Assembly: GCF_004134905.2 (NCBI RefSeq)
Contig: NZ_SDPQ02000002.1
Location: 1-64,000, forward strand
Reading direction: 5' to 3'
Length of the DNA: 64,000 nucleotides
Source of the DNA: Aeromicrobium ginsengisoli
GTDB lineage: Bacteria > Actinomycetota > Actinomycetes > Propionibacteriales > Nocardioidaceae
Shown: positions 336-31,504 of the stretch, piece by piece
How positions within the stretch are numbered: position 1 is the stretch's first letter
How the letters are laid out: each line of letters opens with the position of its first letter
Program-made: the position numbers and the translations under genes
The notes under the pieces: generated by a model
Seen by the model: only the letters and a program-made list of their open reading frames with translations
What the model was told of the DNA's origin: nothing
The model's database searches: none

Positions 336-358
336 GTCGAGTGAGGGAGCTGATGGTG

Positions 359-4529: not shown

Positions 4530-4554
4530 ACACTGGAACTCTGGGAGGTACAAG

Positions 4555-6652: not shown

Positions 6653-6665
6653 CAGATCAATCAAT

Positions 6666-10474: not shown

Positions 10475-10501
10475 ACCGCGCGCTGGCTGAACGCCAAACC
10501 T

Positions 10502-13498: not shown

Positions 13499-13550
13499 CG
13501 ATTCATCCGCCAGATCATGAGGACAGCCACTCATCGTGAGTGCAAATAAA

Positions 13551-13562
13551 CCCGAAATCGGG
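13551..13562. promoter_or_regulatory. dyad CCCGAAATCGGG in divergent promoter region
   Basis: A 12-bp dyad with five-base arms (CCCGA/TCGGG) lies in the roughly 190-base space between the BTAD regulator and the crotonase gene. Read on the minus strand it is followed by TTTATTT, so it could also be a small terminator. An operator for the regulator is the simplest reading from position. The symmetry is seen; the role is inferred. Confidence 0.35.
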
Positions 13563-13691
13563 ATGTTCAGCAAGCCGTGTTCGAGGAATTCGATTTCGAC
13601 TCGTTTTGCGGGCGAGTCCGCATGCTCGGGGTTGCCAATAGCCAAACCGACATCGAGGGTGCCGCGATCGGCGCCCGATAACGGAGGAAAC

Positions 13692-14555
13692 ATGCCTGAA
13701 GCCTGGTCGCGTACCAAGATGTATCGGACCTACCTCGACGAGTACTCCGCAAAGTGGGCAGAGTACTTCAGCTTCAAGCGCGAGGACGGAATCCTCGAGA
13801 TGCGCATGCACACGCTGAACGGGCCCGCGAAATGGAGTCTGGAGCTGCACCGTGCCTTCATTCCGGCCCTGGCCGACGTGCACCACGACCCTGAGAACGA
13901 GATCCTGATCTTCTCGGGCACCGGCGACAAGTTCCTCGACACGATGGACCCCGAGGGGTGGGAACGCTACGACTTCAAGCAGGACATGACCTTCGATCGC
14001 GGCTACGACTTCTGGTACAAGGACCAGGTCCATGAGCCGTTCAGCTTCCTCAACCTGGAGATCCCGGTCATCGCGGCCATCAACGGCCCATGCTTTATCC
14101 ATCAGGAACTGGCACTGCTCAACGACATCGTGATCGCATCAGAGAGCACGACAATGGCCGACGGCCACTACACCGGCATGGGCATCGTCCCGGGCGATGG
14201 AGTTCAGACGATCTTCCGCGAGCTGATGGGCGTCAATCGTGCGAAGTACTTCCTGCTGACCGGCCAGGTGCTGTCTGCCCAAGAGCTTCTTGACCTGGGG
14301 CTGGTCGGCGAGGTTGTCCCCGACGACCAAGTCATCGACCGCGCTTGGGAGATTGCGCGCACGGTCTTCAAGCCGCGAGCGCGCTCGACCAGGGTCATGA
14401 CACGTGCGCTCCTGGTACAGCCGTGGCGCGAGATCCTAGTTCGCGAGCTCCCCGCCGGCATGGCGAACGAGAGCTGGGCCGTACATGGGTACTGGGGCAT
14501 GGCTCAAGACGGCTTCGACATCGAGACACTGACGTCCTCGGAGGACGAAGAATGA
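13692..14555 (+). CDS. crotonase-superfamily hydrolase resembling 6-oxocamphor hydrolase
   Basis: A 287-residue enoyl-CoA hydratase/isomerase-fold protein. From memory, its closest named relative is Rhodococcus 6-oxocamphor hydrolase (CamK), a beta-diketone hydrolase doing retro-Claisen C-C cleavage. Shared stretches are EIPVIAAINGP, DIVIASEST, GIVPGDG, NRAKYFLLTGQ and a late NES glutamate. The catalytic-region Asp of GIVPGDG, a His in ADGHY (one position off the CamK His) and the C-terminal Glu are present. GGAGGA directly precedes ATG 13692. It overlaps the glyoxalase gene by four bases. It suggests that a cyclic 1,3-dicarbonyl is cleaved in this pathway; a CoA-thioester substrate is less likely but possible. 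Confidence 0.75.
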   Translation: MPEAWSRTKMYRTYLDEYSAKWAEYFSFKREDGILEMRMHTLNGPAKWSLELHRAFIPALADVHHDPENEILIFSGTGDKFLDTMDPEGWERYDFKQDMTFDRGYDFWYKDQVHEPFSFLNLEIPVIAAINGPCFIHQELALLNDIVIASESTTMADGHYTGMGIVPGDGVQTIFRELMGVNRAKYFLLTGQVLSAQELLDLGLVGEVVPDDQVIDRAWEIARTVFKPRARSTRVMTRALLVQPWREILVRELPAGMANESWAVHGYWGMAQDGFDIETLTSSEDEE

Positions 14556-14983
14556 CGAGCCGACTGCACCACGTCAACATCAGGATCACCGATTTGGACC
14601 GCTCACTGGCGTTCTACGCCGCCCTGGGTCTGACGCACGAGGGCACCTTGGTTCTGGGGCCGGGGTACACCTTGGTGTACGTCGGTGACGCCCGTGGCGG
14701 AGTCCTCGAATTGGTGCTGAACGAAACCGATGATCCGGACTACGACAGGTACCCGGGCGCAGGGCATCTCGGTTTCGAGGTCGACGACATCCACGCGTCG
14801 TTGACTGCCCTTGCCCGTCTGGGGGTGACACCGGAGGCGGCTCCCACGCATCCCGGTGGCCGTACGGATCTCAACGAAATCGTCTTCGTGCGTGACCCGG
14901 ACGGAGTCCGGGTCGAGTTACTTCAGGCGGACTGGCCGCTGCCGCAGGATCCGTCACCGGCCGGTCTCGGCCTCGACGCCTGA
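14552..14983 (+). CDS. VOC-family protein (glyoxalase/lyase type)
   Basis: A 143-residue vicinal-oxygen-chelate protein with the two betaalphabetabetabeta modules expected of glyoxalase I-like enzymes. Candidate metal ligands are an early His in LHHVNI, Glu in VLELVL, His in GHLGFEV and Glu in VRVELLQ. It could be a lactoylglutathione-lyase relative, an isomerase or a small extradiol dioxygenase. It starts by ATGA overlap with the crotonase gene and is followed within ten bases by the FAH-family gene, so the three are translationally linked. Confidence 0.8.
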   Translation: MTSRLHHVNIRITDLDRSLAFYAALGLTHEGTLVLGPGYTLVYVGDARGGVLELVLNETDDPDYDRYPGAGHLGFEVDDIHASLTALARLGVTPEAAPTHPGGRTDLNEIVFVRDPDGVRVELLQADWPLPQDPSPAGLGLDA

Positions 14984-14993
14984 GCGGGGAACG

Positions 14994-16010
14994 ATGAAAC
15001 TCGCGCGACAGGTCGTCGAAGACGTCGACGGCAAGAGCTCTCGCATCCTTGTTATGGGTGAGCATGCGTGGATCGACGTGAGATCGGCTGTGCGACACGA
15101 AGCGGAAAGCCGAGGCGCAACGCCCGGCGGAGCGCGCCGTCTAGCTGAGGCGCTGGTGCCGTCAAGCATGTCGGCGGCCCTCGCCGGGGGTGCTGCGTTT
15201 CTCGACGCGGCACGCGCGGCCGCAGAGGATGAGCCCGAGATGGCGAGAGTAGTCCACCCGAACCTGACCAATGCGCTGGACCCGGCCACGTACCGGGACT
15301 TCATGGTTTTCGAGGAACACTTCTCTTTCGGTTATCGCTGGCAGGACAAGCCAGTCCCAGATGTGCTCTATCAAATGCCGATCAGCTACGCGGGTGATCC
15401 GCGGTCCTTCATCGGTCCAGGTGAGGAGATCCCGTGGCCTGGCTACACCGAGCGACTGGACTACGAGCTCGAGCTGGGAATTGTGATCGGTGCGCCGGGC
15501 ACGGACCTGACACCCGATGAAGCGCTCGATCATGTCCTGGGACTCACGATCCTGAACGACGTGAGCGCCCGCGACATCCAGGCCCGTGAAATGACCGGGG
15601 CGCTGGGACCGTCGAAGGGAAAACACTTCGCGTGCGTGACGGGTCCGCTCATCGTGACCCTGGACGAGCTCTCACGAGATGGTCTGCGAATGACCGCGCG
15701 CGTCAACGGTGAGACCACATGCGAGACATCCAGCGCTGAGATGGTGTGGTCGGTGGCCGAGATCGTGGCCTGGGCGTCGCAGGGCGAGCAGCTGCTGCCC
15801 GGAACGTTGCTCGGCAGCGGCACGTGCAACGGCGGATCGACGATCGAGACGGGGCGCGTCTTGGCGCCCGGGGACGTGATCGAGCTGGAAATCGAGGGGC
15901 TCGGGGTGTTGTCCAACGTGCTGGGGACTCCAGCTTCCGCTGGCTGGGCGCCCACGGAGCGTGAGCGCACACCGGACGGGAAGGCCGCGAGGCACAGGTT
16001 CCTGCGTTAA
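14994..16010 (+). CDS. fumarylacetoacetate hydrolase-family protein
   Basis: A 338-residue FAH-fold hydrolase. The C-terminal catalytic domain shows the metal ligands E158 and E160 in DYELELG and D189 in LNDVSARDIQ, followed by KGKHFACVTGP and GTCNGGSTIE. Relatives hydrolyse acylpyruvates, decarboxylate or hydrate 2-oxo acids. ATG 14994 with GGGGA a few bases upstream follows the VOC gene by ten bases. In context it probably cuts the open-chain diketo acid made by the crotonase. It ends convergent to the FAD/Fe-S oxidoreductase. Confidence 0.82.
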   Translation: MKLARQVVEDVDGKSSRILVMGEHAWIDVRSAVRHEAESRGATPGGARRLAEALVPSSMSAALAGGAAFLDAARAAAEDEPEMARVVHPNLTNALDPATYRDFMVFEEHFSFGYRWQDKPVPDVLYQMPISYAGDPRSFIGPGEEIPWPGYTERLDYELELGIVIGAPGTDLTPDEALDHVLGLTILNDVSARDIQAREMTGALGPSKGKHFACVTGPLIVTLDELSRDGLRMTARVNGETTCETSSAEMVWSVAEIVAWASQGEQLLPGTLLGSGTCNGGSTIETGRVLAPGDVIELEIEGLGVLSNVLGTPASAGWAPTERERTPDGKAARHRFLR

Positions 16011-16039
16011 CGCGACACTTGACGCGCCAGGGGCGTTGC

Positions 16040-18841
16040 TCAGCGTGTGAGCCGTTCCAAGACCACCAGCACGTGCTCGAACGCCTGGCCGGTCGCGCGA
16101 GACATGCCCATCTCGCACGTCAGGTTCGACGACACGTAGGCGTCGAAGTGGGTTGCGCTGATCTCGTCCGACTCGGCCTTGGTGGCGGACTGGGTGAGTT
16201 CTGGTTGCAAAAGGCCGCGATCGCCTGCGAAACCGCAGCATCCCCAGGCGTCCGGCACCGTCACGGAGTCGCTCAGATAATGAGCGATCGCGGTGAGGTC
16301 CTCAGTGTTGCCCAGGTGGACGCTCGAGCAGGTTGGATGGACGACGACGGTCGACAGGCGCTGCTTCACCTGCAGAGCGGGCAAGAGCTCGGCGCGTGCG
16401 AACGTGACGGCATCAACCAGGCGAAGTGACTCGAATCGAGCGCGTTCCTCGGCATCGAGCACCTCACGGGACGCATGCAGACCCTGAGTGCAGCTGGTGG
16501 CGTCGCACACGATAGGGAGCCGTCCGGCATCGGACGCTTCCCACAATGCGCCAAGTGTCCGAGCGGCCATGATCGGATGTCCATCAACAAAGCCTTTGGA
16601 CTGCCATGGTGTTCCGCAGCACAAACCCGCGATCGCGTCCGGGACTACGAACGAGCGGCCCACCCGGGCGGCCAGTGTTGTTAGTGCCCCGGTGACCCCG
16701 TCCGCCGGAGCGGCGAAGATCGATCCCACGCAGGCTGGGAACAGCACGAACGATGCGCCGGGATCCGATCGTGCCTGGCGCCGCGGTCCTGGCCCGGGCA
16801 GGTTCGCGCCGGCAGCAGGTATCCAGTCGTCGGATCCCCAGCGGCGGGCGGTGGCGGTGAGAGGATCCAAGACGTCCTCGGGCAGCTTCGAGGCGATTGT
16901 GAGCGCACCACGCGCGCCCGCGACGACGCTGCCGAAATGGCGCGCCGCGAACACCCCACCCCGCTGGGCGATCGTCCCCAGGCGGTCACGCCGCAGTTCC
17001 TTCATAGCGGCTCCGGTGTCGATGCCTACGGGGCACGCGGTCACGCACAAGGAATCTGCCGCGCATGTGGCGACTGCGTCATGCTGAAAAGCTGATTCGA
17101 GCTCGGCCCGGTCGGCGGGTGAGGCCAGCGAGATGTCCCGGAGCAAGGCGATGCGCTGGCGCGGCGTTGTCGTGAGGTCGGCTGAAGGACAAACGGGCTC
17201 GCAGTAGCCGCACTCCACGCACGAGTCGACCAGAGGATTGACCATCGGAACCGGCTTGATGTCGGTGACGTGGATTCTCTCGTCGTCGGTCAGGACGACG
17301 CCGGGGCTCAGCAGTAAATCTGGATCGAACAAGCGCTTGACCTGGCGCATGACAGAGTACAGTTCAGAACCGAACTGACGCTCGACGAACGGCGCCATCA
17401 TGCGTCCAGTCCCGTGCTCTGCCTTCAATGACCCCCGATGTCCCAAAATCATGTCGACGAGGTCCTCGGTGAAAGCCTCGTACGTGCGCAGCTCCGCAGG
17501 GTCGTCGAGGCGCGGGTTGATCATGAAATGAAGGTTCCCGTCCTTGGCATGGCCGAAGATCACAGCGCCGTTGTAGCCGTGGACATCGAATAGATTTGTG
17601 AGGTCTGCCGTCGCGTCCGACAGTGCGGCAACCGGCACCACAACATCCTCAAGCAGCGCGGTCGAGCCAGGAGGACGCGCCGCAGCGACCGCGGTGTACA
17701 AGCCCTTCCGGAGCTTCCACAGTGCTGCGCGAGACTTCGGGTCACGAGTAAAACGCGTCGGTCGGACGAGTTCGAGTTCGGGCAGAAGCGAGGTCATCAC
17801 GTTTAGCCGGGCGGACAGCGCCTCGTGGGTGGCGCCTTGAATCTCCACCAGCAGACCAGTGTGCTGATCCACGGCGATGTCGGCGAGCTCGGGGAGGGCG
17901 GCAGTGCCGGTCTGGGAAACCCGAAGCGAGGTGGCGTCGAGGAGCTCAATGGCCGCCGCGCCGTGCTCAACAAGCGCGGGCAACGCCCGCGTTGCGGCGA
18001 TCACGTCGGGGAAGATCAACAGCGCGGTGGCCGCACTCGGGCGGAGCGCAACAGTGCGGAACGTGGCCTCGGCGATCCACGCGAGCGTCCCCTCCGATCC
18101 GACCATCAGATGGGTCAAGATGTCCGAAGGTTCCGAGAATTCCGTGAAGGCGTTCAGCGAGTAGCCCATGGTGTTCTTCATCGAGTACTGCTGGGCGATC
18201 CGATCGCGGGAAGCCGAATTCGCGACGATTCGTCCACGCAGATCGAGAAGACCGCGGTACAGATCGGGTTCTGTTAGGCGCAGACGATCGTCGGCGTCAC
18301 GCGCGCCGGTGTCGAGCTGGATTCCACTGGGGAGGATCACTCGCATCGACTCGATTGTCTGGAAGGCGTTGGTGTCGATGCCGCACTCCATGCCCGACGA
18401 GTTGTTGGCCAGGATTCCTCCCACCGTGCACGCTACTTCGCTTGCCGGATCTGGTCCTAGCTTGTGCCCCGTGCGCGACAGGCGCAGATTCACAGCGCGG
18501 ACGGTCGCGCCGGGCTCGACCGTGACACGTCCCCCGTCGGCCGACGGGTCGATCGCCCGGAAGTGACGTCGCGTGTCCAGCAGGACCCCGGAAGTTCCCG
18601 CCTGTCCCGACAGGCTCGTCCCGCCTGACCTGAACGTGACGCTGGTCTTGAGTTCCTTAGCCCGCCGAAACGCGGTGGCGACGTCGTCGCTGGTGCGCGG
18701 TCGGACGACGGCAGTGGGCGTCATCAGGAAGTGCGAGGCGTCATGCGCCATAGCCCTGCGGTCCACGAGTGACACTGAGACGTCAGCGTCCCCCCACCCG
18801 TGAGCAAGCGCGGCAGTTTTGTCCGTCGAGAGGTCAGGCAT
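16040..18841 (-). CDS. FAD- and Fe-S-binding D-2-hydroxyacid (D-lactate-type) dehydrogenase
   Basis: About 933 residues, the length and layout of Dld-II/YdiJ-type respiratory dehydrogenases. An N-terminal FAD_binding_4 domain (VTFRSGGTSLSGQAG, GLGPDPAS-like region, VGGILANNSSGMECG) is followed by the FAD-oxidase C-terminal domain (HAKDGNLHF, EHGTGRMMAP). Two ferredoxin-type clusters come next (CVECGYCEPVCP; CAADSLCVTACPVGID), then CCG domains (LCCGTPW, GCCGFAGDRGLL). It should oxidise a D-2-hydroxyacid from the pathway and pass electrons to quinone. ATG 18841 is chosen over GTG 18940, which would leave almost no room for the divergent amidohydrolase promoter. Neither has a clear Shine-Dalgarno sequence. 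Confidence 0.82.
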   Translation of the reverse strand: MPDLSTDKTAALAHGWGDADVSVSLVDRRAMAHDASHFLMTPTAVVRPRTSDDVATAFRRAKELKTSVTFRSGGTSLSGQAGTSGVLLDTRRHFRAIDPSADGGRVTVEPGATVRAVNLRLSRTGHKLGPDPASEVACTVGGILANNSSGMECGIDTNAFQTIESMRVILPSGIQLDTGARDADDRLRLTEPDLYRGLLDLRGRIVANSASRDRIAQQYSMKNTMGYSLNAFTEFSEPSDILTHLMVGSEGTLAWIAEATFRTVALRPSAATALLIFPDVIAATRALPALVEHGAAAIELLDATSLRVSQTGTAALPELADIAVDQHTGLLVEIQGATHEALSARLNVMTSLLPELELVRPTRFTRDPKSRAALWKLRKGLYTAVAAARPPGSTALLEDVVVPVAALSDATADLTNLFDVHGYNGAVIFGHAKDGNLHFMINPRLDDPAELRTYEAFTEDLVDMILGHRGSLKAEHGTGRMMAPFVERQFGSELYSVMRQVKRLFDPDLLLSPGVVLTDDERIHVTDIKPVPMVNPLVDSCVECGYCEPVCPSADLTTTPRQRIALLRDISLASPADRAELESAFQHDAVATCAADSLCVTACPVGIDTGAAMKELRRDRLGTIAQRGGVFAARHFGSVVAGARGALTIASKLPEDVLDPLTATARRWGSDDWIPAAGANLPGPGPRRQARSDPGASFVLFPACVGSIFAAPADGVTGALTTLAARVGRSFVVPDAIAGLCCGTPWQSKGFVDGHPIMAARTLGALWEASDAGRLPIVCDATSCTQGLHASREVLDAEERARFESLRLVDAVTFARAELLPALQVKQRLSTVVVHPTCSSVHLGNTEDLTAIAHYLSDSVTVPDAWGCCGFAGDRGLLQPELTQSATKAESDEISATHFDAYVSSNLTCEMGMSRATGQAFEHVLVVLERLTR

Positions 18842-18978
18842 TGCGCAACTGTCGCGCGTCGCGCGAAAAGCAGGCGAAAGGCGTAGAGCAATTTGTCGTG
18901 TGTTTACGGGTGTCCTCGTAGCATCCGAAATGCGCGGCACCGACGAGCGGTGTCGGCTGGAGCGCAGTCAGGGGAATC

Positions 18979-20373
18979 ATGGTGAACCGTCAGCGAACCC
19001 TGCTCGTCGGAGGTCTGGTCGTTGCCGTCGACCCAGGGCAGCCCGAGTCGGCGGTGCTGGATGTCCTGGTCGAGGACGGCGTCATCGTGCAGATGGCTCC
19101 AAGCATCACGGTCGACCAAGGTGCCTGCGAGGTGCTGGACATGCGTGGCCGGATCCTGATACCGGGGCTGGTCGACACTCATCGACACCTTTGGCAGTCG
19201 CTGTTCCGGTATGCCGGGGCAGACTGGACCATCGAGAACTACGTACAAGCGATGTGGGGCAAACTCGGGCCGGCCTACACCCCCGAGGACGTGTACATCG
19301 CGCTGCGCATCGGGCTGGCCGAGGCACTGGACGCCGGTTGCACGCAGATCTTCGACTGGAACCACAATCACCTCACTCCCGAGCACAGTGACGCCGCGGT
19401 CGCAGCACACATGGAGTCTGGCGCGCGGTCGATCCTGGGTTACGGCCAGTCGATGACGACCCTCGGTGAGTTCCTGCGCACGGGTCCCGGCAACGGCTCG
19501 ATTCCTCCGTCGGAGGACATACGTCGGCTGCGGGAGACCTATTACTCGTCCGACGACCAGTTGAATCGCCTTGCGATGGCTGCAAGAGGCGGGGAGGTAG
19601 CCACGACCGAGGTGATCGCGACGGAAGCCCGTCAGGCGCGTGAGCTCGGTCTCCGTAGCAGCATTCATGCGGGCAACGCCAATTGGGCCAAGCTGCGTCC
19701 TGTTGAGAAGCAGCAGGCGGCCGCCGGTCTCACGGATGACACGACGTGGGTGCACTGCAATGCGTTGAGCGACGATGAGTTGCGCCTCATCGCCGATAGC
19801 GGTGGAACGGTCTCGGTGTCGCCAGAACTTGAACTGCACATGGCCATCGGACCCGTGGCTATTCGACGGCTGCTCGCACTGGGGATCCGTCCTAGCATCT
19901 CGGTGGACACCTGCTTGAACGTGAGCGGAGAACTGTTCAGCGTTATGCGAGCAGCCCTGTCGAGCGTTCGCGGCGACGCCAATGCCGAAGTCATCGCCAG
20001 CGGCATCAATCCGCTCGAACTTCCGCTCAGCACGCGTGACGTTCTTCAGTTCGCGACCTGGGAGGGCGCGCGAGCAAACGGGCTCTTGGAGCGAACGGGC
20101 TCTCTCACGGTGGGCAAGGAGGCCGACATCGTCGCGATCAACACGCACCGCGCCAATCTCATGCCAGTGTCGTACCCGACGGGCGCAGTTGTCGTGGGAG
20201 CCAATCCAGCAAACGTCGAGCTCGTCATGGTGCGAGGGAGGGTCGTCAAGCGAGACTTCGCCCTGGTCGACGTGAATCTCGCGGCGCTGTTGGATCGTGC
20301 TCAGGTTCAGAACGAAGCGTTGTTGCGACGCATCGGTTCTCGCTTTGAGACCGGCCTGCTTGTGGATAGTTGA
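18979..20373 (+). CDS. amidohydrolase, TRZ/ATZ (chlorohydrolase/deaminase) family
   Basis: A 464-residue metal-dependent hydrolase of the cytosine-deaminase/atrazine-chlorohydrolase group. The first metal ligands are H68 and H70 in DTHRH. Later His residues lie in SIHAGN and WVHCN, and the catalytic Asp in SVDTC. The small beta-sandwich is formed by both ends (PGLVDTHRH; GKEADIVAINT). The HxxE signature after the second His is not seen, because the motif reads HAGN. AGGGGA precedes ATG 18979. It probably deaminates or dechlorinates an N-containing ring, which hints that the island's substrate is a nitrogen heterocycle. The gene is divergent from the FAD/Fe-S dehydrogenase. Confidence 0.82.
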   Translation: MVNRQRTLLVGGLVVAVDPGQPESAVLDVLVEDGVIVQMAPSITVDQGACEVLDMRGRILIPGLVDTHRHLWQSLFRYAGADWTIENYVQAMWGKLGPAYTPEDVYIALRIGLAEALDAGCTQIFDWNHNHLTPEHSDAAVAAHMESGARSILGYGQSMTTLGEFLRTGPGNGSIPPSEDIRRLRETYYSSDDQLNRLAMAARGGEVATTEVIATEARQARELGLRSSIHAGNANWAKLRPVEKQQAAAGLTDDTTWVHCNALSDDELRLIADSGGTVSVSPELELHMAIGPVAIRRLLALGIRPSISVDTCLNVSGELFSVMRAALSSVRGDANAEVIASGINPLELPLSTRDVLQFATWEGARANGLLERTGSLTVGKEADIVAINTHRANLMPVSYPTGAVVVGANPANVELVMVRGRVVKRDFALVDVNLAALLDRAQVQNEALLRRIGSRFETGLLVDS

Positions 20374-20681
20374 AGCATCATGTCGAAAGGAAGACGCGTG
20401 GCACGAAAGAATCGTGGACGGCTTGGACCCGGTCGAGTCGGTCTGGAACCTTCGCGGCCGTCCGTTTCAGTGTCTGACCTCAATGCTTGGGCTATCGCTT
20501 GGGGAGTGCCCGAACGAGCCGTGACCCATCGACATCATGAGACAGACTCGGTGCGCGAGACCAATCTGTGAGCTGCCGCTCGCCCGGGTGTCCCGCAGTC
20601 GACCGAGTCTGATCTATTTCACGCGACGAGATCCGTGATCGTTGGAATGCGCTGGAAAGCGCGGACTGTCCAGCGTCACCG
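20374..20681. other. intergenic region with no supported gene
   Basis: It lies between convergent genes for the amidohydrolase and the CoA-transferase B subunit. A 63-codon plus-strand frame at 20380-20571 has no Shine-Dalgarno sequence and no recognisable domain. No clear terminator hairpin was found by eye. Confidence 0.5.
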
Positions 20682-21319
<638 letters not shown>

Positions 21320-21323
<4 letters not shown>

Positions 21324-22039
21324 GCCAGAGCTCCTTCGGCACGTGCGGGTCGGGAACGGACGGTTCTCTGCTCTATCGGCTTCGCTCGCGCCCTAGCCCG
21401 CACGGTGTGAGTGATGTAGACGCCCGGGGTCTGAACCAGCTCGGGATCGATCTCGTCGACCAGGTGCTCGACCTCGGCGACAGTTACGCGGCCGCTGGCA
21501 GCGACAGCAGGGTTGAAGTTGCGGGCCGCCAGGCGGTATCTCAGATTGCCGGACCGGTCCCCAGTGTGGGCGTGGACGAGGGACAGGTCGGCCACGATAC
21601 TGCGCTCCTGGACGTACTCAGTGCCGTCGAACACGGCGGTGGGCTTGCCCTCGGCAACGGCGGTGCCGACCCCGGTACGGGTATAGAACGCGGGGATGCC
21701 CGCGCCGCCGGCCCGCAATCGTTCGGCCAGTGTGCCTTGCGGGTTGAACTCGACCTCGAGTTCGCCGGCGAGGTACTGCGCCGCGAACAGTTTGTTTTCG
21801 CCGACGTAAGACGCGACGACCTTGGAGACTTGATTGTTCTCCAGCAAGAGCCCCAGGCCTACGCCGTCCACTCCCATGTTGTTGGACACGATCGTCAAGT
21901 CCTTGACTCCGGATTCGCGGACGGCCTCGATCAGGTCGTGCGGAGTGCCGCACAGCCCGAAACCCCCGACGGCGATGGTCATGCCATCGTGCAACTGCGG
22001 GATCAAGGGTCTGTCATCTACGCGTTCGGTCGCCAACAT
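21320..22039 (-). CDS. 3-oxoacid CoA-transferase subunit A
   Basis: Alpha subunit (239 residues) of the same CoA-transferase (ScoA/PcaI type). It carries the CoA-binding motif GGFGLCGTP near residue 25 and the family blocks [16 protein letters not shown] and [33 protein letters not shown] immediately precedes ATG 22039. Transcription is divergent from the IclR regulator gene, which is its likely controller, as for many pca and related aromatic-catabolic operons. Confidence 0.9.
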
Positions 22040-22109
22040 CTTTTCCTTTGCTCACTCAGCGAACTTGCTTGTGCAATGCCCGGAGTTAACGCGATGCCTG
22101 CAATCACCG

Positions 22110-22120
22110 TCAACAGTTGA
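22110..22120. promoter_or_regulatory. dyad TCAACAGTTGA between CoA-transferase and iclR
   Basis: A perfect inverted repeat with five-base arms in the divergent intergenic region. It is short, so it could arise by chance, but its position fits an IclR operator. Confidence 0.25.
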
Positions 22121-22205
22121 AGCCAGCCTCATGAGCAACTGGTCCGTCATTGATCGCCGGAGCCGCAGTACGCTCACTGAGTGGACGCTCGAGTATTGTG
22201 ACGCT

Positions 22206-22997
22206 GTGACCCGTGAACCTGGAATGGTCGAAAAAGTCGCGACAGTGCTAAGAGTGCTTGCCAGCTCATCTCAGAGCGCCGACCTGAAGACGGCCGAGAT
22301 TGCGAGACGATGCGGTATCCCGCGTGCTACCACACACCGCCTTCTGACCTCGTTGGAGCATCAGGGGCTCGCAGAACGAGATAGGCGCTCGGGATGTTGG
22401 TATCTCGGTCCCGACGTGTATTTGCTTGGGCGCGCGGCTGCTCCCAGGTACGACATCACGTCGGTCGGTCGAGAGGCAGTCCACCGACTAGCTCTGGAGA
22501 CTGGGGAGAGTGCGTTCTTGTCCGTCCGCCGCGGGGATGAGACTGTGTGCCTGATACGAGAAGACGGCAGCTTCCCACTGAGGTCGTTCGTTCTCTATGA
22601 GGGCGCGCGGTTCCCATTGGGTGTCGTGTCGGCCGGCCTCGTGACGTTGGCAATGATGCCGGATCGGGAGGTCCTCGACTACCTCGATCGTGTCGATCTC
22701 GCATCGGACTGGGGTCAGTCGCACAGCCGGCCGGAACTGATGGCCCGCCTGCATGAAACGCGCCGAAAGGGCTACGCGGTCAACCCAGGCCTCGTGGTGG
22801 AGGGGAGCTGGGGAATGGCGGCCGCGGTTTTTGATGACAACGGGCAACCGGCGTGGGCCCTAACGCTCACCGGGGTGGCTACGAGGTTTCAACCGGGCCG
22901 CCAGAAAGAGCTGGGGAGGTTGTTGCTCGATGCGGCTCACAATCTCACGGTAAGTCTGCAATCGAGCGGAACGACCGTGAAGGGCCCGCACTTGTGA
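22206..22997 (+). CDS. IclR-family transcriptional regulator
   Basis: About 263 residues from GTG 22206. An N-terminal winged helix (VEKVATVLRVLASS, TAEIARRCGIPRATTHRLLTSLEHQGLAER) is followed by the IclR effector domain (VHRLALETGESAFLSVRRGDETVCL, GVVSAGLVTLAMM, GYAVNPGLVVEGSWGMAAAVFDDNG). Starts at ATG 22131 and ATG 22224 are also in frame, and none has a clear Shine-Dalgarno sequence; 22206 or 22224 gives the usual family length. It is divergent from the CoA-transferase genes and probably regulates them and perhaps the wider island. Confidence 0.85.
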   Translation: MTREPGMVEKVATVLRVLASSSQSADLKTAEIARRCGIPRATTHRLLTSLEHQGLAERDRRSGCWYLGPDVYLLGRAAAPRYDITSVGREAVHRLALETGESAFLSVRRGDETVCLIREDGSFPLRSFVLYEGARFPLGVVSAGLVTLAMMPDREVLDYLDRVDLASDWGQSHSRPELMARLHETRRKGYAVNPGLVVEGSWGMAAAVFDDNGQPAWALTLTGVATRFQPGRQKELGRLLLDAAHNLTVSLQSSGTTVKGPHL

Positions 22998-23069
22998 CCC
23001 TCGAACGGGCGGGAGTGGTGACGAAGGGGGAACGCGGCGGCACATCGCGTCATCCCTGGGCTGGGGAGC

Positions 23070-23753
23070 ATGTTTGGCCGGGATTTCGGGGCGAGTTGTT
23101 CTACTGAGCGGGTGATCGCCCCCACTCCCGCGTCGCCGCCGCGCGCCACGCCGACAGGCGGCGCAGACTTTGTCGATGGGTGCGCTAGGAGTCGGGGTCG
23201 GCCACTGGATCCAGAGGTCGAGTCAGCGCTGCTGCGCGCCACACGGGAGCTCCTGGTTGAGACAGGCTTTGACCGGCTGACGATCGAAGCTGTCGCGAAG
23301 CGGTGTGGTGCAGGAAAAGGCTCGGTCTACCGCCGATGGACAAGCAAGACCGAACTCGTTTGCGCCGCGATGCGTGATGCGTTCCCCGAACGCCGAGTCC
23401 CTGAGTCCGGGGATCTGCGGGCTGATCTTCTCCGCGCTGCTCGGATGCCGGGAGAAGGGGCCGGGCAGGGGCAATTGGCGTGGGTGAGGGTGATGGCAGC
23501 CGCTCCGCAAGATCCCCGAATTCGGCAATTCGTGGAGGAGTGGCTCAGCCCACGACTGGCGCATCCCTTGGTCGAGGTGCTGAGCCGCGCGGCGCAACGG
23601 GAAGAAATAGAGCGATCTATCAACGTCGATCTGATAGCGGACATCTTCGTCAGCTTGACCCTCAACCGGCTAATCACTCGTGGAGCAAACCTTCAGGAGC
23701 AGGAGCTTGAGCAGATGATCGACTTGATCGTGCGGCCGACCGGACTCGGATAG
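23070..23753 (+). CDS. TetR/AcrR-family transcriptional regulator
   Basis: About 227 residues. The DNA-binding domain starts late (ATRELLVETGFDRLTIEAVAKRCGAGKGSVYRRWTSKTELVCAAM) after an unusual basic, proline-rich leader of about 45 residues, so the true start may be GTG 23112 rather than ATG 23070. A TetR_C-like ligand domain follows (QLAWVRVMAAAPQDPRIRQFVEEWL). It is the last gene before the attachment site. Its target is not evident, and it may control the island operons or a neighbour beyond the window. Confidence 0.8.
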   Translation: MFGRDFGASCSTERVIAPTPASPPRATPTGGADFVDGCARSRGRPLDPEVESALLRATRELLVETGFDRLTIEAVAKRCGAGKGSVYRRWTSKTELVCAAMRDAFPERRVPESGDLRADLLRAARMPGEGAGQGQLAWVRVMAAAPQDPRIRQFVEEWLSPRLAHPLVEVLSRAAQREEIERSINVDLIADIFVSLTLNRLITRGANLQEQELEQMIDLIVRPTGLG

Positions 23754-23967
23754 GGCACACGAAGAGCCACGTGTCGTCTTGGGCGTGCGTAAACGCTGGA
23801 AGCCGGAACGCCGTGTACGCATTCTTTCCGTGTACCCCCGGCGCACCCCCAGGACGAAACCGGCAACTCCGGAGGCGCGAATACAACTGAAATGACGGGC
23901 AAAACAAAGCCCCTGAGTCACTAGTCGTGAGGATGTCAGATTCCCATATGGTCCAGCACCCTTGCTT

Positions 23968-23990
23968 GGGCGCGCGCCCCCGGCGCGCCC
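23968..23990. repeat. GC-rich hairpin near the island end
   Basis: Perfect eight-base arms GGGCGCGC and GCGCGCCC around a seven-base loop. No T-tract follows on either strand, so a simple Rho-independent terminator is not certain. It could be a terminator for the tetR transcript or a structural element of the attachment region. Confidence 0.45.
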
Positions 23991-24028
23991 CCACGGTGAG
24001 AATCCATGCAATCGGAGGCATGTATGGG

Positions 24029-24042
24029 CCTGCAATTGCAGG
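24029..24042. repeat. 14-bp perfect palindrome CCTGCAATTGCAGG
   Basis: A perfect uninterrupted 14-bp palindrome 22 bases before the tRNA fragment. It could be a recombinase or excisionase arm site, or an operator. The palindrome is seen; the function is inferred from its place beside the attachment core. Confidence 0.45.
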
Positions 24043-24063
24043 GAAAAATGGCCGCAACGACCC

Positions 24064-24108
24064 CTCGTAATGAAAAGGTCGTCAGTTCGATTCTGACAAG
24101 CGGCTCCA
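24064..24108 (+). other. 3' fragment of tRNA-Thr(CGT); presumed att site of the island
   Basis: Forty-five bases match the 3' part of a tRNA-Thr with anticodon CGT. They comprise the anticodon loop CTCGTAA (24064-24070), 3' anticodon stem TGAAA, variable loop AGGTC, T stem GTCAG (24081-24085), T loop TTCGATT, CTGAC, 3' acceptor strand AAGCGGC (24098-24104), the discriminator base and an encoded CCA (24106-24108). The five bases before it (GACCC) cannot pair with TGAAA, and no D arm or 5' acceptor strand is present, so the gene is truncated. Integrases that target tRNA genes leave exactly such a displaced 3' copy at the far end of an island. The base order is seen; the att role is inferred. 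Confidence 0.8.
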
Positions 24109-24176
24109 CGAATCATTGATGTTCCCCCGCGTGCCGTGCGCGCCACGCTGATCAGCCTCTGGGCTCGGCTCGGCAG

Positions 24177-25217
24177 TCAGTCGGGGACGATGAACGGGAT
24201 GTCACCAAGCACGAGCATCTGTGCCGCGGTGCCCGCGGACTCCGTGGGTGCGATCTTCACCGTGACGACGCTGCCTGCGGTGGAGACGTCCTCGACGTCC
24301 AGAATCTCGGCGAACCACGCGTTCGAGCGGATCGCGAAGTCGTCCTCCCAGACGGCTCTGATTCTGCTCTCGGCACCGGCGATGTCCTTCACGCGGTACG
24401 CGATGTATTCGACCGCCTTGCCGTCCTCAACGGCTTGGGCGACGCCGACCGCGTCGAATGCGGGCATCGTCGCGGGCATGTGCTCGGCCAGCTGCCCGCC
24501 GAAAGCTGCATCGGCGGGGCGGTCGCTGAGCACCACGTCGTAGACGCGGTGGGTGCCGAGCGCCTTGGCGACGTCGAGCAAGGGCTCGTGGTCGGCCAGC
24601 GACCTCTGGCCGCGGGCCCTCCAGGCAGCCAAGGCCTTCTGCGTCTTGGCGAGGGCGATCTGCTGGTCTCTCCGCGCCACCCCGAAGACCTGAGGGAAGG
24701 GCGCGTCACTCGCGCCGGCCGGGTCGAGGTCGCCGATCTTTCCGGCGCCGGTCGTGGACACGTCTTTCGAGCTCACCCCGTCCGCAAGGTGAACCACGGT
24801 GACCGCATCGGGGAGTGACTCGACGGATGAGGTCGTGGTGATGTCGCGGGCGTCGAAGCCCAACGCTTTCCGCATCGCACCCGTCTGCAGGCGCGGTAGT
24901 CCGAGCCCCTCGCCGCCCGCGATGTAGACCTCGGGGCCGTTCAGGCGTTGGATCCATGTCGCCGTGGACTGCGGGTCGCGCGGCTTCGGCAGCTTGCCGA
25001 GCTCAGAGGCCTGCGCGAGGTCGCTGGCGAAGACCTGGAGCGGCCGGTCGGGCGAAGGCTCGATGGGTGGGAGCTCGCGCAGTGCCGACTCGACGGTGAA
25101 GCTGCTGGCGCTCGGCTTTGGCTTCGCTGCGGAGTCGTCGCTGCCGCCACCGCTGCAGCCGGCGAGGGCACACGCGCCGATCATTGCCGTGACCAGAGCA
25201 GCACCGAGTCGTCGCAT
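24177..25217 (-). CDS. putative lipoprotein of unknown function
   Basis: A 346-residue exported protein. A type II signal peptide ends in lipobox ALAGC with Cys21, followed by a Gly/Ser/Asp linker and an extracytoplasmic domain with no recognised family. ATG 25217 with a GGGGGG run a few bases upstream is preferred over an in-frame ATG at 25259. It is divergent from the siderophore operon and shares its 208-base upstream region, including the iron box. It does not look like the TroA-type ferrioxamine-binding lipoprotein often found beside des genes. It is the first core gene after the att site. Confidence 0.75.
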   Translation of the reverse strand: MRRLGAALVTAMIGACALAGCSGGGSDDSAAKPKPSASSFTVESALRELPPIEPSPDRPLQVFASDLAQASELGKLPKPRDPQSTATWIQRLNGPEVYIAGGEGLGLPRLQTGAMRKALGFDARDITTTSSVESLPDAVTVVHLADGVSSKDVSTTGAGKIGDLDPAGASDAPFPQVFGVARRDQQIALAKTQKALAAWRARGQRSLADHEPLLDVAKALGTHRVYDVVLSDRPADAAFGGQLAEHMPATMPAFDAVGVAQAVEDGKAVEYIAYRVKDIAGAESRIRAVWEDDFAIRSNAWFAEILDVEDVSTAGSVVTVKIAPTESAGTAAQMLVLGDIPFIVPD

Positions 25218-25374
25218 CAGTCGTCCCCCCAGACATGCTCCGGCAGGTTCCGGAGTCATCGGACGAGGCTAGGGCATACGTCGATACTGCTCGGCAGATT
25301 GTGGACAGGACGTGGAAGCAACCCCGCCTGCTGGTGTGAGCAAACTCCCAAGCGGTTGCATTCGCATGGCGGCG

Positions 25375-25401: not shown

Positions 25402-25425
25402 CACATCTTCGGGGAAGGAGTGGTG

Positions 25426-26889
25426 GTGCGCCACCACCTGTTCAACACACGCAATCTCGACCGCTATCGCGAAGACATGGGACGGGGGCTCGACGCCCTC
25501 ATCTCGCACGTCGCCAGCGTCAGCCAGCCGTTCTCCGGCGCTGGAGTGCACGGGGTGTCGGAGCGGGTGGCCGGGGTCGACCTCGACCGTCCCTTGGAGG
25601 ACCTCGACGCGGTGCTCGACGAGCTGCGAGACGTGTACCTCGACGACGCGGTCTGGTTCCATGAGCCGCGATATCTGGCGCACCTCAACTGCCCCGTCGT
25701 GATCCCGGCACTGGTCGCCGAGCTCTTCGTCTCGGCGGTCAACTCGTCGCTGGACACCTGGGACCAGAGCGCAGGCGGCACCTTCGTGGAGCGTCGGTTG
25801 GTCGACTGGGCCGCGGGCCGCATCGGATTCGACGGCAACGCGGACGGGGTGTTCACCAGCGGCGGTACGCAGTCCAACCTGCAGGCCCTGCTGATCGCCC
25901 GCGGGCAGGCGTACCTCTCCGGAGATGCCGACCCGGCCGAGCCGCTGGGGCAGACCCTCGGTCGGTTCAGGATCTTCGCGTCGTGCGACAGCCACTTCAG
26001 CGTGCAGAAGTCCGCGAACGTCCTGGGCCTCGGCCTCGACGCCGTGGTGACGATTCCGACCGATGAGCGACGCCGGATGGATCCGTGGCTGCTCGACCAG
26101 GAGATCGCCCGGGTGCGGGCAGCCGGACTGATCCCGATGGCGGTCGTGGCGACCGCCGGCACCACGGACTTCGGGAGCATCGATCCGCTGAACCGGGTCG
26201 CCGACGTCTGCGCGGAGCACGGGGTGTGGCTGCACGTCGATGCGGCATACGGCGGAGGTCTGCTGGTCTCGACCCGGCGCCGGCACCTCATCGACGGCAT
26301 CGAGCGCGCGGACTCGGTGACGATCGACTTCCACAAGACGTTCTTCCAGCCGGTCAGCTCGAGCGCCGTGATCGTCCGCCGCGGCGACGACCTGAGGCAC
26401 GTGACCTATCACGCCGACTACCTCAACCCGCGGTCCGCGGCGTTGCCGAACCAGGTCGACAAGAGTCTGCAGACCACGCGCCGCTTCGACGCGCTCAAGC
26501 TGTGGCTCACGCTGCGCACGATGGGCGCCGACGCGATCGGTGACTACTTCGACGCCGTCATCGACCTGGCTGCCGTCGGTCATGGACTGCTGCGCGACGA
26601 CCCTGACTTCGAGGTCGTGGTGGCACCAGCGCTGAGCACGCTGGTGTTCCGCTTCCGCCCCGAGGAGGTGCCCGAGGGGGTCGCCGACGAGGTCAACCCG
26701 CGGATCCGCCGTACGATCGCCGGCCGTGGCGACGCGGTCATGGCGGGCACCGTGGTGGGTGGGCGGGCGTGGCTCAAGTTCACCCTGCTCAACCCCGAGA
26801 CGACGGTCGGCGACGTACGCTCCGTGCTCGACCTGATCCGCGAGATCGGCCGTGAGCTGCTCGACGAGCTGCGTACGGAGGTCCGCTGA
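25426..26889 (+). CDS. desA: PLP-dependent L-lysine decarboxylase of siderophore synthesis (DesA)
   Basis: A group II PLP decarboxylase of 487 residues closely resembling Streptomyces DesA, which turns lysine into cadaverine for desferrioxamine. Hallmarks are PRYLAHLNCPVVIPAL, NSSLDTWDQSAGGT, FTSGGTQSNLQALL, D272 in HVDAAYG and the Schiff-base lysine K304 in DFHKTFFQPVSSSA. Three GTG codons follow one another at 25420, 25423 and 25426. GAAGGAG (25414-25420) favours 25426 and the start MRHHLF. It is the first gene of the iron-controlled operon and overlaps desB by one base. Confidence 0.92.
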   Translation: MRHHLFNTRNLDRYREDMGRGLDALISHVASVSQPFSGAGVHGVSERVAGVDLDRPLEDLDAVLDELRDVYLDDAVWFHEPRYLAHLNCPVVIPALVAELFVSAVNSSLDTWDQSAGGTFVERRLVDWAAGRIGFDGNADGVFTSGGTQSNLQALLIARGQAYLSGDADPAEPLGQTLGRFRIFASCDSHFSVQKSANVLGLGLDAVVTIPTDERRRMDPWLLDQEIARVRAAGLIPMAVVATAGTTDFGSIDPLNRVADVCAEHGVWLHVDAAYGGGLLVSTRRRHLIDGIERADSVTIDFHKTFFQPVSSSAVIVRRGDDLRHVTYHADYLNPRSAALPNQVDKSLQTTRRFDALKLWLTLRTMGADAIGDYFDAVIDLAAVGHGLLRDDPDFEVVVAPALSTLVFRFRPEEVPEGVADEVNPRIRRTIAGRGDAVMAGTVVGGRAWLKFTLLNPETTVGDVRSVLDLIREIGRELLDELRTEVR

Positions 26890-28178
26890 TGAGGACGTAC
26901 GACTTTGCTGCCGTCGGGCTCGGTCCGTTCAACCTCGGACTGGCCTGCCTCGCCGAGCCGGTCGACGGTCTCGACGGGATCTTCCTCGAGGCGCGCGACG
27001 ACTTCAGCTGGCATCCCGGCATGCTGCTCGCCGACGCAACGTTGCAGGTCCCGTTCATGGCGGATCTGGTCACGATGGCGGATCCGACGTCGCGGTTCTC
27101 GTTCCTCGAGTTCCTCAAGAGCACCGGCCGGCTCTACGCGTTCTACATCCGCGAGTCCTTCTATCCGCTGCGCGCCGAGTACGACCAGTACTGCCGCTGG
27201 GCTGCTGCGCAGATCGCGGGCATCCGTTTCGGGCGGCACGTGGACCGCGTGCAGCACGACGGCGAGGCGTACGTGCTGACCGCCAGGCTCCGGGGCGGCG
27301 GCACCGAGACGTACCGCGCGCATCGCCTGGTGCTCGGGACCGGGACGCAACCCCACGTCCCGGCGGCTGTGCAGGGGCTCGAGGGACCGATGATCCACAC
27401 CGCCGACTACCTCACGCACAAGGCGGCGCTGCAGGCGACGAGGTCCATCACGATCGTCGGCAGCGGCCAGAGCGCCGCCGAGGCCTACCTCGACCTGCTC
27501 GACGACATCGACTCGTTCGACTACGAGCTCACCTGGGCCACGCGATCGCCGCGGTTCTTCCCGATGGAGTACACCAAGCTGACGCTCGAGATGACCTCGC
27601 CGGAGTACACGGCGTACTTCCACAGGCTGCCGATGGAGACGCGCGACGCTCTCCTGCGGGAGCAGCGGCAGCTCTACAAGGGCATCAGCGCCGACCTGAT
27701 CGACACGATCTACGACACCCTCTACCGCCAGCAGGTCCAGGGCGAGGTGCCCACACGGCTGCTGACCAACGCCGAGCTGTCCGGTGCGGCGTGGGACGAG
27801 GCCAGAGGTGCGTACGACCTCGCGTTCCGGCACGTCGAGCTCGACGCGCCCTTCGCCCTGGAGACCGAGGCGTTGGTCCTCGCGACGGGATACCGGCCGC
27901 AGGTGCCGGGGTTCGTCGCTTCGATCGCCGACCGCATCCGGTGGGACGCGAAGCGTCGATACGCCGTGGCGGCCGGCTACACGATCGACGACGACGCGCA
28001 GATCTTCGTGCAGAACGCCGAGGAGCACACGCACGGTCTCGTGGCGCCCGACCTCGGGATGGGCGCGTTCCGCAACTCCGTCATCCTCAACGCGATGTGC
28101 GGGCGCGAGGTCTATCCGGTCGAGGAGCGGATCGCGTTCCAGGAGTTCGGGGTCGCCCGGACAGAGGTGCCGGTATGA
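26889..28178 (+). CDS. desB: cadaverine/lysine N-monooxygenase of siderophore synthesis (DesB)
   Basis: A flavin N-hydroxylating monooxygenase of the IucD/SidA/PvdA family, 429 residues. It should hydroxylate the free amine of cadaverine using FAD and NADPH. FAD motif AVGLGPFNLGL lies near residue 8, the family block WHPGMLLADATLQVPFMADLVTMADPTS follows, then the NADPH motif IVGSGQSAAE and the C-terminal ATGYRPQVPGF. ATG 26889 shares a base with the desA stop codon, and the end overlaps the fused desCD gene by four bases. Confidence 0.93.
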   Translation: MRTYDFAAVGLGPFNLGLACLAEPVDGLDGIFLEARDDFSWHPGMLLADATLQVPFMADLVTMADPTSRFSFLEFLKSTGRLYAFYIRESFYPLRAEYDQYCRWAAAQIAGIRFGRHVDRVQHDGEAYVLTARLRGGGTETYRAHRLVLGTGTQPHVPAAVQGLEGPMIHTADYLTHKAALQATRSITIVGSGQSAAEAYLDLLDDIDSFDYELTWATRSPRFFPMEYTKLTLEMTSPEYTAYFHRLPMETRDALLREQRQLYKGISADLIDTIYDTLYRQQVQGEVPTRLLTNAELSGAAWDEARGAYDLAFRHVELDAPFALETEALVLATGYRPQVPGFVASIADRIRWDAKRRYAVAAGYTIDDDAQIFVQNAEEHTHGLVAPDLGMGAFRNSVILNAMCGREVYPVEERIAFQEFGVARTEVPV

Positions 28179-30520
28179 CGACGTCGACCCTGTTCGCTCG
28201 CGTCACCCACCTCGGCCGGGTGACGCTGGAACCGCTCGAGGTGGACCGCGATGCCGAGACGCTGCACACGTGGGTGACGCATCCGCGAGCCGTCTACTGG
28301 GGCATGCAGGCCGCGAGCCTTGAGGAGGTCCGTGAGGCGTACGCCGACATCGTCGCCGACCCGCACCACGACGCCTGGCTCGGCCGGGTCGACGGCGAGC
28401 CCGCGTTCCTCGCCGAGACGTACGATCCGGCGCACGGTGAGCTCGCCGACGCCTACGACGTGCTCGACGGCGACATCGGCATGCACGTGCTGGTCGCACC
28501 GACCGACCAGCCGCGGTCCGGGTTCACGTCCGCCGTGTTCCGCACCGTGATGGAGCTCTGTTTCGACGATCCGCGCCACCGTCGGGTCGTCGTCGAGCCA
28601 GACGTCCGCAACGACCGCATCGCGGTGCTCAACGCAGCGGCGGGCTTTCGCGTCGAGCGTGAGGTCCGGCTCGCCGGCAAGACGGCGGCGCTCAGCACGT
28701 GCACCCGCGATCAGTTCGCGCGCAGCGAGATGGTGCGGGGACGTGCGACAGACGGTGACGACCCACGTGTCGCGAGCGAGCACCTGACCCCGGAGGCCAT
28801 GCAGGTCGCCCATCGGTTCCTCGTCGCCAAGGCCCTCGCCGAGTTCTCGCACGAGCGGCTGCTCGTGCCCGAGCCCGTCGGTCACGACCATCAGGTGACG
28901 ATCGGCGATGCCCGATACCGATTTCACGCCCGCCGCTACGAGCTCGAGCACTGGGTTGTCGAGCCGTGGTCCGTGACGCGCGACGTCGGTGGCGAACCGG
29001 CCGAGCTGGACGCCCTGGCCTTCATCGCCGAGCACGCCGAGGTCCTCGGCATACCCGACGCGCTGTTGCCCACGTACCTCGAGGAGATCAGCAGCACGCT
29101 CGCCAGCGCGGCCTGGAAGTACGTGCACGCCACGCTGTCCTCGGCCGACCTGGTGGATGCGGACTTCCAGGCGATCGAGGCGGCGATGACCGAGGGACAC
29201 CCCGCGTTCGTCGCCAACAACGGCCGCATCGGCTTCTCGGCCTCGGAGTACGCGTCGTACGCGCCCGAGGCCGGCCGGCCCTTCGCGGTGGTGTGGCTCG
29301 CGGTGCGCCGCACCAAGGCGCATCTCTCGCTGGGCGAGGGGATCGATGAGGAAGCCCTGTACGCCGGTGAGCTCGACGCTGCGACCCGCGCGCGGTTCGA
29401 CGCCGAGCTGCGCGGGCTCGACCTCGACCCGGACGACTACCTGCTGATGCCGGCGCATCCGTGGCAGTGGCAGCACAAGCTGGCGATCACGTTCGCTCCG
29501 GACATCGCCCGGCGGGACATCGTGTGCCTCGGCCACAGCGCCGACCGCTATCGGGCACAACAGTCGATCCGTACGTTCTTCAACGCCGACCGGCCGGAGC
29601 GGCACTACGTCAAGACCGCTCTCTCGATCCAGAACATGGGGTTCATGCGTGGCCTGTCGCCGCGCTACATGCGGGCGACGCCGGCGATCAACGACTGGGT
29701 CGCCGGGCTCTTGGAGGAGGATGACGAGCTGCGCAACTGCGGATTCGGTGTGCTGCGCGAGCGGGCGGCGATCGGCTACACCGGGGACGCCTATCACCGG
29801 CTCGGCGCGCCGTCGGCGTACACCAAGATGTTGGCCGCGCTGTGGCGTGAGAGTCCCGTCCCGCAGGTCGCAGCCGGCGAACGACTCGCCACGATGGCCT
29901 CGCTCCTGCACCGGGACCGCGACGGACGGCACCTGGTCTCCGAGCTCATCGCCGCGTCAGCCGTGTCGCCGCGCGACTGGGTCGCGAGCTATCTGCGGGC
30001 GTACGTGCGACCCGTCGTGCACTGCCTGCACCGCTACGAGCTGGCGTTCATGCCGCACGGTGAGAATCTGATCCTGGTGCTGCAGGACCACGTGCCGACG
30101 CGGGTGCTCATGAAGGACATCGGTGAGGAGATCGCCGTGATGGGTGACCTACTGCTGCCGGCCGAGGTCGAGCGCGTACGTGCGGCGGTGCCCGACCGGG
30201 TCAAGCCCCTGGCGGTGCTGACGGATGTCTTCGACGGGTTCCTGCGCTTCCTCGCCGGCATCCTCGCTGAGGACCGGTTGCTCGGCGAGGACGAGTTCTG
30301 GTCACTGGTCGCCGGCACGATCGTCGAGCATCAGGCCGCCCACCCGGAGCTGGCCGACGCGTTCGCCCGGATCGACCTGTTCGCGGCCGAGTTCGACCAC
30401 TCCTGCCTCAACCGGCTCCAGCTGCGGGACACGCGGCAGATGGTCGACCTGTCGGACCAGGCCGAGTCGCTGATCTTCGCTGGCACCCTGGTCAACCCGA
30501 TCGCCCGGTTCGCCCCGTGA
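28175..30520 (+). CDS. fused acyltransferase-NIS siderophore synthetase (DesC-DesD)
   Basis: A 781-residue fusion. Residues 1 to about 190 are a GNAT acyltransferase (LEPLEVDRDAETLHTWVTHP, GDIGMHVLVAP, GFRVEREVRL) equivalent to DesC, which acylates N-hydroxycadaverine. Residues from about 210 are an IucA/IucC synthetase equivalent to DesD, with GHPAFVANNGRIGFS, AHPWQWQH, KTALSIQNMGFMRGLS, HGENLILVL and KDIGEEIAVM. Streptomyces makes these as two proteins. The start at ATG 28175 overlaps desB; the frame is open further upstream only as an out-of-phase reading of desB. The product is probably a ferrioxamine-type trihydroxamate. Confidence 0.92.
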   Translation: MTTSTLFARVTHLGRVTLEPLEVDRDAETLHTWVTHPRAVYWGMQAASLEEVREAYADIVADPHHDAWLGRVDGEPAFLAETYDPAHGELADAYDVLDGDIGMHVLVAPTDQPRSGFTSAVFRTVMELCFDDPRHRRVVVEPDVRNDRIAVLNAAAGFRVEREVRLAGKTAALSTCTRDQFARSEMVRGRATDGDDPRVASEHLTPEAMQVAHRFLVAKALAEFSHERLLVPEPVGHDHQVTIGDARYRFHARRYELEHWVVEPWSVTRDVGGEPAELDALAFIAEHAEVLGIPDALLPTYLEEISSTLASAAWKYVHATLSSADLVDADFQAIEAAMTEGHPAFVANNGRIGFSASEYASYAPEAGRPFAVVWLAVRRTKAHLSLGEGIDEEALYAGELDAATRARFDAELRGLDLDPDDYLLMPAHPWQWQHKLAITFAPDIARRDIVCLGHSADRYRAQQSIRTFFNADRPERHYVKTALSIQNMGFMRGLSPRYMRATPAINDWVAGLLEEDDELRNCGFGVLRERAAIGYTGDAYHRLGAPSAYTKMLAALWRESPVPQVAAGERLATMASLLHRDRDGRHLVSELIAASAVSPRDWVASYLRAYVRPVVHCLHRYELAFMPHGENLILVLQDHVPTRVLMKDIGEEIAVMGDLLLPAEVERVRAAVPDRVKPLAVLTDVFDGFLRFLAGILAEDRLLGEDEFWSLVAGTIVEHQAAHPELADAFARIDLFAAEFDHSCLNRLQLRDTRQMVDLSDQAESLIFAGTLVNPIARFAP

Positions 30521-31484: not shown

Positions 31485-31504
31485 GCCGCGACCTTAGCGC
31501 ACTG

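Follow-up and report, generated by a model that had tools for sequence, protein, structure and literature searches.

A truncated tRNA-Thr(CGT) in Aeromicrobium ginsengisoli as the probable attR of a genomic island

The window analysed here comprises 64,000 nucleotides, bases 1-64000 of contig C2 in the 4.0-Mb, seven-contig genome of Aeromicrobium ginsengisoli (G000). Other G-numbers (G003, G023 and so on) denote the genomes compared with it, among which G026 is Aeromicrobium sp. Root344 (NZ_LMDH01000001.1), and L-numbers denote loci. To the left of a tRNA fragment at 24 kb, Pfam and NCBIfam assign an FAD oxidoreductase, a beta-lactamase-fold protein, a sugar-type ABC transporter, an FAD/Fe-S oxidase, an enoyl-CoA hydratase, an FAA hydrolase, an amidohydrolase, a CoA transferase pair, and MalT-like, IclR and TetR regulators. 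To its right stand an ORF to which no family could be assigned and a group of siderophore genes (Table 1). GC content steps up at 24 kb, from 61-65% in the 12 two-kb segments to 24,000 to 66-73% in the 20 segments thereafter.

The letters at 24064-24108 can be read as an anticodon loop (CTCGTAA), a T-arm (GTCAG-TTCGATT-CTGAC), the 3' strand of an acceptor stem, and CCA. As the original prediction held, this is a truncated tRNA-Thr(CGT) that lacks its 5' half, and ARAGORN calls no tRNA anywhere in the 64-kb window. A possible acceptor-like GCCGC lies left of the core. Rfam gives no match for the fragment at gathering thresholds; at a lax threshold it returns two sub-threshold matches, to an antisense tRNA-like plastid family and to a microRNA family, which we set aside as cross-hits or chance, the plastid match being a cross-hit with a tRNA 3' half.

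Table 1. Features of the island ends and of their surroundings; coordinates without a prefix are window positions.
Feature	Position	Strand	Basis or remark
Right end of repeated element, IS110-type in G035	1..127		Identical at C2 start, C4 start and in G035 island
IS110 transposase ORF (second IS)	47..1591	+	NCBIfam transpos_IS110, 3.6e-72
Island cargo	1964..23753		Pfam/NCBIfam
Putative integrase arm-type site pair 1	23832..23850	+	GYRCCCCC-N3-GYRCCCCC
Att left arm (island right end), conserved between islands	23834..24063	+	Alignments that include the core: G035, 82% (293 bp); G026, 85% (142 bp)
Putative integrase arm-type site pair 2	23974..23992	+	GYRCCCCC-N3-GYRCCCCC
Palindrome CCTGCAATTGCAGG, putative accessory site	24029..24042	none	21 bp left of core
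Probable att core (attR), tRNA-Thr(CGT) 3' half from anticodon-loop position 32	24064..24106	+	43/43 identity to intact C3 tRNA-Thr
Remnant of 3' end of a second integrase gene	24107..24148	-	34/42 bases identical to integrase end beside intact tRNA
First ORF right of junction, no family assigned	24177..25259	-	G035 homologues ~0.88 Mb from tRNA
Siderophore genes (diaminobutyrate decarboxylase-like, IucA/IucC)	25420..30520	+	In inversion-moved block; also in G023
Intact tRNA-Thr(cgt), attL	C3:1079258-1079331 = L003:9259-9332		ARAGORN
Tyrosine integrase gene	L003:9339-10415 (C3)		Reads toward tRNA-Thr
Inversion junction	C3:291164-291675 (L065); G026 near 1773661 (L091)

The first 17 bases of the fragment occur exactly twice in the A. 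ginsengisoli genome, once in the window and once inside an intact tRNA-Thr(cgt) on contig C3, and a DNA search of the genome with the fragment likewise yields two matches; the count leaves out three small contigs (3.3 kb in all, reading N). The second copy of a supposed 45-base direct repeat is therefore present, but only 43 bases repeat exactly (24064-24106), because the intact copy has CAA where the fragment encodes CCA. Weaker similarity extends beyond the tRNA, to 85 bp at 91% in all.

C3 is 1,086,022 bases long and ends 6.7 kb past the intact tRNA-Thr, whose core starts at C3:1079289; just six bases separate the end of this tRNA from the stop codon of a tyrosine integrase gene. The corresponding ORF (L003:9339-10616) matches Pfam Phage_integrase at 3.6e-18. 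The integrase frame itself, which has 358 residues and starts MGIRQ, begins at the end of an HTH_17 gene directly upstream, whose product is perhaps Xis-like; it contains the motifs GLRWSE, HDLRHT and GHADLKTTQRY, which we take to hold the catalytic residues. Beyond the HTH_17 gene, inside the island, lie an exonuclease-domain protein and then a 703-residue AAA ATPase (L003:13019-15130); PDC-S06, a candidate defence family of PADLOC, matches it at 5.9e-268. Both the intact tRNA-Thr sharing these bases and the tyrosine recombinase beside it had been expected, and both are found near the end of C3. They had also been expected left of window base 1; their existence is established, and that placement depends on a join across a contig gap, to which we return below.

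Relatives lacking the island had been anticipated too. We searched 98 genomes, A. ginsengisoli included, with the fragment, and 46 of them matched. G023 and G027 carry the same tRNA-Thr and the same left flank with no integrase adjacent to it; that is, their site is unoccupied. The intact tRNA and the displaced half of G026 are separated by 11.4 kb, which delimits an 11.4-kb island, and from the core onward its right flank matches that of G023 over 5,476 bp at 92%. Judged by this alignment, G026 and G023 form a clean pair of occupied and empty sites. The tRNA halves of G035 are 66.7 kb apart, delimiting a 66.7-kb island, and in G024 a related integrase adjoins the same tRNA, with a second half 7.6 kb on. 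At its tRNA-Thr(CGT), G019 has a 0.98-kb mini-island or remnant (L023:525-1577) that is too short for an integrase and has kept an arm-type motif.

A second integrase, at the start of C3, is 62% identical to the first and adjoins an intact tRNA-Thr(TGT), where it marks a paralogous island. Searched with 27 bases from the 3' half of this tRNA (at most 2 mismatches), the genome contains one other copy, at C4:113067, where no tRNA is called. By att pairing this second island comprises C3:1-8186 (L119) and C4:1-113093 (L117, L130), about 121 kb plus a gap, and a tRNA-Trp gene lies inside its C3 part.

Close to the core, the arm left of it is conserved between islands. The pattern GYRCCCCC-N3-GYRCCCCC matches twice in the window, against 0.01 matches expected, and both matches fall within 235 bp left of the core. 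A C-rich pair aligns at the place of pair 2 in 5/5 att sites compared, of which G003 departs from the strict motif. On the integrase side the motif is present in all three of G000, G026 and G035, and G026 and G035 carry it on the opposite side as well; the tRNA-Thr(TGT) att pair has it at either side. Altogether 19/130 loci contain it, several of which overlap and represent the same place, and the placements given here are for loci other than L110 and L111. We infer that the GYRCCCCC pairs are arm-type sites of the integrase. The palindrome CCTGCAATTGCAGG stands unchanged at this position in G035 and G003, has an imperfect counterpart in G026, and is not kept in the tRNA-Thr(TGT) island.

When 11 integrases are placed in a tree, those at tRNA-Thr(CGT) in G000, G026 and G035 form a trio (100/100) apart from a tRNA-Thr(TGT) trio (90/100) that falls below the tool's starred level and includes one partial sequence, two rows of the tree being long. 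Integrases at 45-51% identity adjoin tRNA-Thr(CGT) in G024, tRNA-Ala(CGC) in G046 and tRNA-Ile(GAT) in a Leucobacter MAG; the tree has no resolved branching among the two trios and these members. It is an evenly balanced proposition, in our judgement, that one integrase family switched among these four tRNA genes, and that between the Thr(CGT) and Thr(TGT) arms compared the same paired arm-type sites were kept and only the anticodon-loop core changed. If this is true, such a series of target switches could teach which integrase residues set core specificity, and integrase paralogues at sister tRNA genes, together with conserved arm motifs, make up a small natural data set on target change.

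Because C3 and C2 are separate contigs in the assembly, the two ends of the island lie on two contigs. The end of C3 and the start of C2 correspond to the two sides of an IS110-type element seen in the G035 island, where the transposase (Pfam DEDD_Tnp_IS110, 1.6e-26) of the copy has a broken frame and the sequence contains ambiguous bases. This repeated element, whose right end opens the window, likely caused the contig break. No copy of its body was found in the A. ginsengisoli genome, and an IS110-type element is presumed to fill the C3-C2 gap. These flanks recur at the start of C4 and, in mirror orientation, at that of C3, so that two contig orders are possible. Since the Thr(CGT) pair links the end of C3 with C2, and the Thr(TGT) pair, intact on C3 and represented on C4 by a 3' half, links the start of C3 with C4, the order rc(C4)-C3-C2 is the sole one that fits, if each pair bounds one island.

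Under the other order, rc(C2)-C3-C4, the window cargo would belong to the tRNA-Thr(TGT) island, and recombination between IS copies would have swapped the right halves of the two islands. It is true that C2 and C4 open with the same 127 bp and that the ends of C3 share a flank in mirror orientation. However, core identity pairs the end of C3 with C2 and the start of C3 with C4. Furthermore, the tRNA and the block from window 30.5 kb onward, which we call W, are near neighbours in G026: on a single contig, 33 kb separate the tRNA-Thr (985.0 kb) from the sequence, reaching to 952.4 kb, that corresponds to window 30.5-34.6 kb. We therefore regard the order rc(C2)-C3-C4 as improbable, and consider it very likely, from these sequence comparisons, that the end of C3 joins base 1 of C2 through the gap. 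In the two paralogous islands, one in each tRNA-Thr gene, the IS seems to have entered at a common point. The joining of contigs C4, C3 and C2 is suggested by the two att pairs.

The sequenced part of the island amounts to about 31 kb. As a whole, the cargo block at 4600-23700 was not found in any of the 48 other genomes of the genus searched, and three genomes give no match at all. Among the matches listed, the longest partial ones reach about 1.2-1.6 kb, and many are CoA-transferase genes elsewhere.

The right side of the junction has a more involved history. Immediately right of the core lies a 42-base stump with 81% identity to the end of the C3 integrase, which reads RHAGEHQ-stop on the minus strand; the integrases themselves end RPAGEHQ (G026, G035) or RPAGEDQ (C3). 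Positions 24107-24148 are unlike the host flanks of G023, G026, G027 and G035. Short as it is, such a stump suggests that a second element of this integrase family probably stood right of the core and is now gone, and hence that the core would once have separated two tandem islands. In G003 (L017; G003:C183:248-487), too, a truncated integrase end comes after an att core, much as in the window. Simple host DNA as the right flank was considered and rejected, since the homologues in G035 are far from the tRNA. A named-genome search with the right-flank protein returned no relatives; the same search was productive with the integrase.

Let R0 denote the 5.5 kb that in relatives adjoin the tRNA on its right, R what follows R0, and N the block adjoining W in G035. 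With R0 of G023 as query, A. ginsengisoli gives only two 38-bp matches (E ~5e-4 to 9e-4); the tRNA's own right flank R0 was thus not found in G000. A query from farther right (30530-34600) matches in 49/49 genomes, A. ginsengisoli included, a few of them weakly. A tRNA-half match and an R match share one contig in 26 genomes of the genus (search results read by eye), and in 22 of these R lies downstream of the tRNA half, on the same strand and within 40 kb, though some tRNA-half matches (G009, G046) may come from a further copy. Four genomes depart from this pattern: G000, G026 and the ambiguous G011 and G045. W lies beside N in at least 19 genomes, the N matches of the others being weak, elsewhere or on other contigs. 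In G000 and G026, by contrast, R lies beside N, and W adjoins the tRNA, directly in G026 and by the inferred join in G000; in G026 R meets N within about 30 bp. This rearranged order amounts to one inversion of about 0.79 Mb common to G000 and G026.

Given the shared inversion, the genes to the right, though conserved across the genus, are not the tRNA's ancestral neighbours. The original prediction had catabolic and regulatory genes giving way to conserved core genes at the fragment: the conservation stands, but the first bases beyond the core are integrase stump rather than host DNA, and the genes after them are not ancestral neighbours. More generally, caution is due, in that genes adjoining a displaced tRNA fragment need not have stood there ancestrally.

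Recombination between att sites by the integrase itself might have produced the 0.8-Mb inversion, an origin that may hold beside our preferred reading, and the junction in the window is indeed close to one inversion endpoint. We consider this very unlikely, however: the G026 breakpoint lies at least 5.5 kb beyond attR, past the host flank and with that tight R-N contact, both core matches of G026 sit at its island, and G000 is without a third core. An inversion breaking at the att site is set aside because in G026 the att site and the breakpoint are 5.5 kb apart, with host flank in between.

Our preferred reading, to which we assign a probability of roughly 0.87 with the C3-C2 join included, is that a genomic island occupies tRNA-Thr(CGT) and that the fragment is its attR. 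The tyrosine integrase on C3 would have acted on the anticodon-loop core of the tRNA gene, recombining it with the attP of the island. The copy of the 3' half that came with the island would have made the tRNA whole again at the left end (attL), and the earlier 3' half would have been displaced to the right end, at window 24064. The island would run from C3:1079289 to the contig end, through the IS110-type element presumed in the gap, and on to window 24106; the right-hand tandem island would have disappeared, and at least 5.5 kb of the host flank with it. The present island may still be mobile. The proposal that an integrase targeting a tRNA gene left a displaced 3' copy thus gains support from the intact partner tRNA, the integrase and the empty sites; within our search, no intact tRNA was found at the fragment, a second copy of the core was found elsewhere, and no relative shared the genes on both sides. 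That the fragment is instead a drifted partial tandem duplicate of the tRNA gene is scarcely credible, for although tRNA-Thr 3'-half arrays exist in the genus (G032 and G046), the island-end sequence left of the copy recurs in G026, G035 and partly in G003, an integrase is attached to the partner tRNA, and GC content changes at about the copy. The arrays, of tRNA-Thr(CGT) 3' halves with an altered anticodon region, lie at L034:1486-2376 in G032 (126-bp unit, about 7 copies) and at L015:6-255 in G046 (86-bp unit). On the preferred reading, an exact border is set between acquired and inherited DNA in this strain of A. ginsengisoli.

The closest comparison is with the island of Root344, which shares with that of A. 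ginsengisoli the same tRNA, the same core, a conserved arm and the same large inversion, and whose integrase is 97.5% identical to the C3 integrase over 358 residues. The Root344 island differs in being 11.4 kb long, in that the window cargo block was not found there, and in keeping the host flank R0 right of attR, unlike A. ginsengisoli. Our literature search returned no paper on an Aeromicrobium genomic island with tRNA-Thr, and, by title, none on this subject for integrase and genomic island.

Integrative and conjugative elements of actinobacteria have their integrase at a tRNA gene and are defined by a replication initiator and an FtsK-type transfer protein. Unlike these elements, the subject of PMC3218068, the island shows no replication initiator or FtsK-type transfer protein among the ORFs scanned with Pfam (10 window ORFs, further sets of 5 and 4, and the first five L003 ORFs), a scan that covers part of the ORFs on the two sides of the contig gap. 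Phage structural or packaging genes were likewise not found among these ORFs.

The principle of tRNA-gene islands, namely that the target is restored and a 3' fragment displaced, is set out in the pertinent passages of the Islander paper (PMC4383910), which give 3919 islands, 3760 of them with a 3' fragment and 2083 with an anticodon-centred site, and place 125 under tandems of two or more. As far as those passages go, Islander islands and the present one have in common an intact target restored by island sequence, a displaced 3' fragment at the other end, an integrase beside the tRNA, and an anticodon-centred crossover (class A), and tandem arrays are known among them; here, in contrast, an integrase stump lies right of the core and the island extends over two contigs. 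The island at tRNA-Thr(CGT) is in this respect a well-supported member of a known textbook class.
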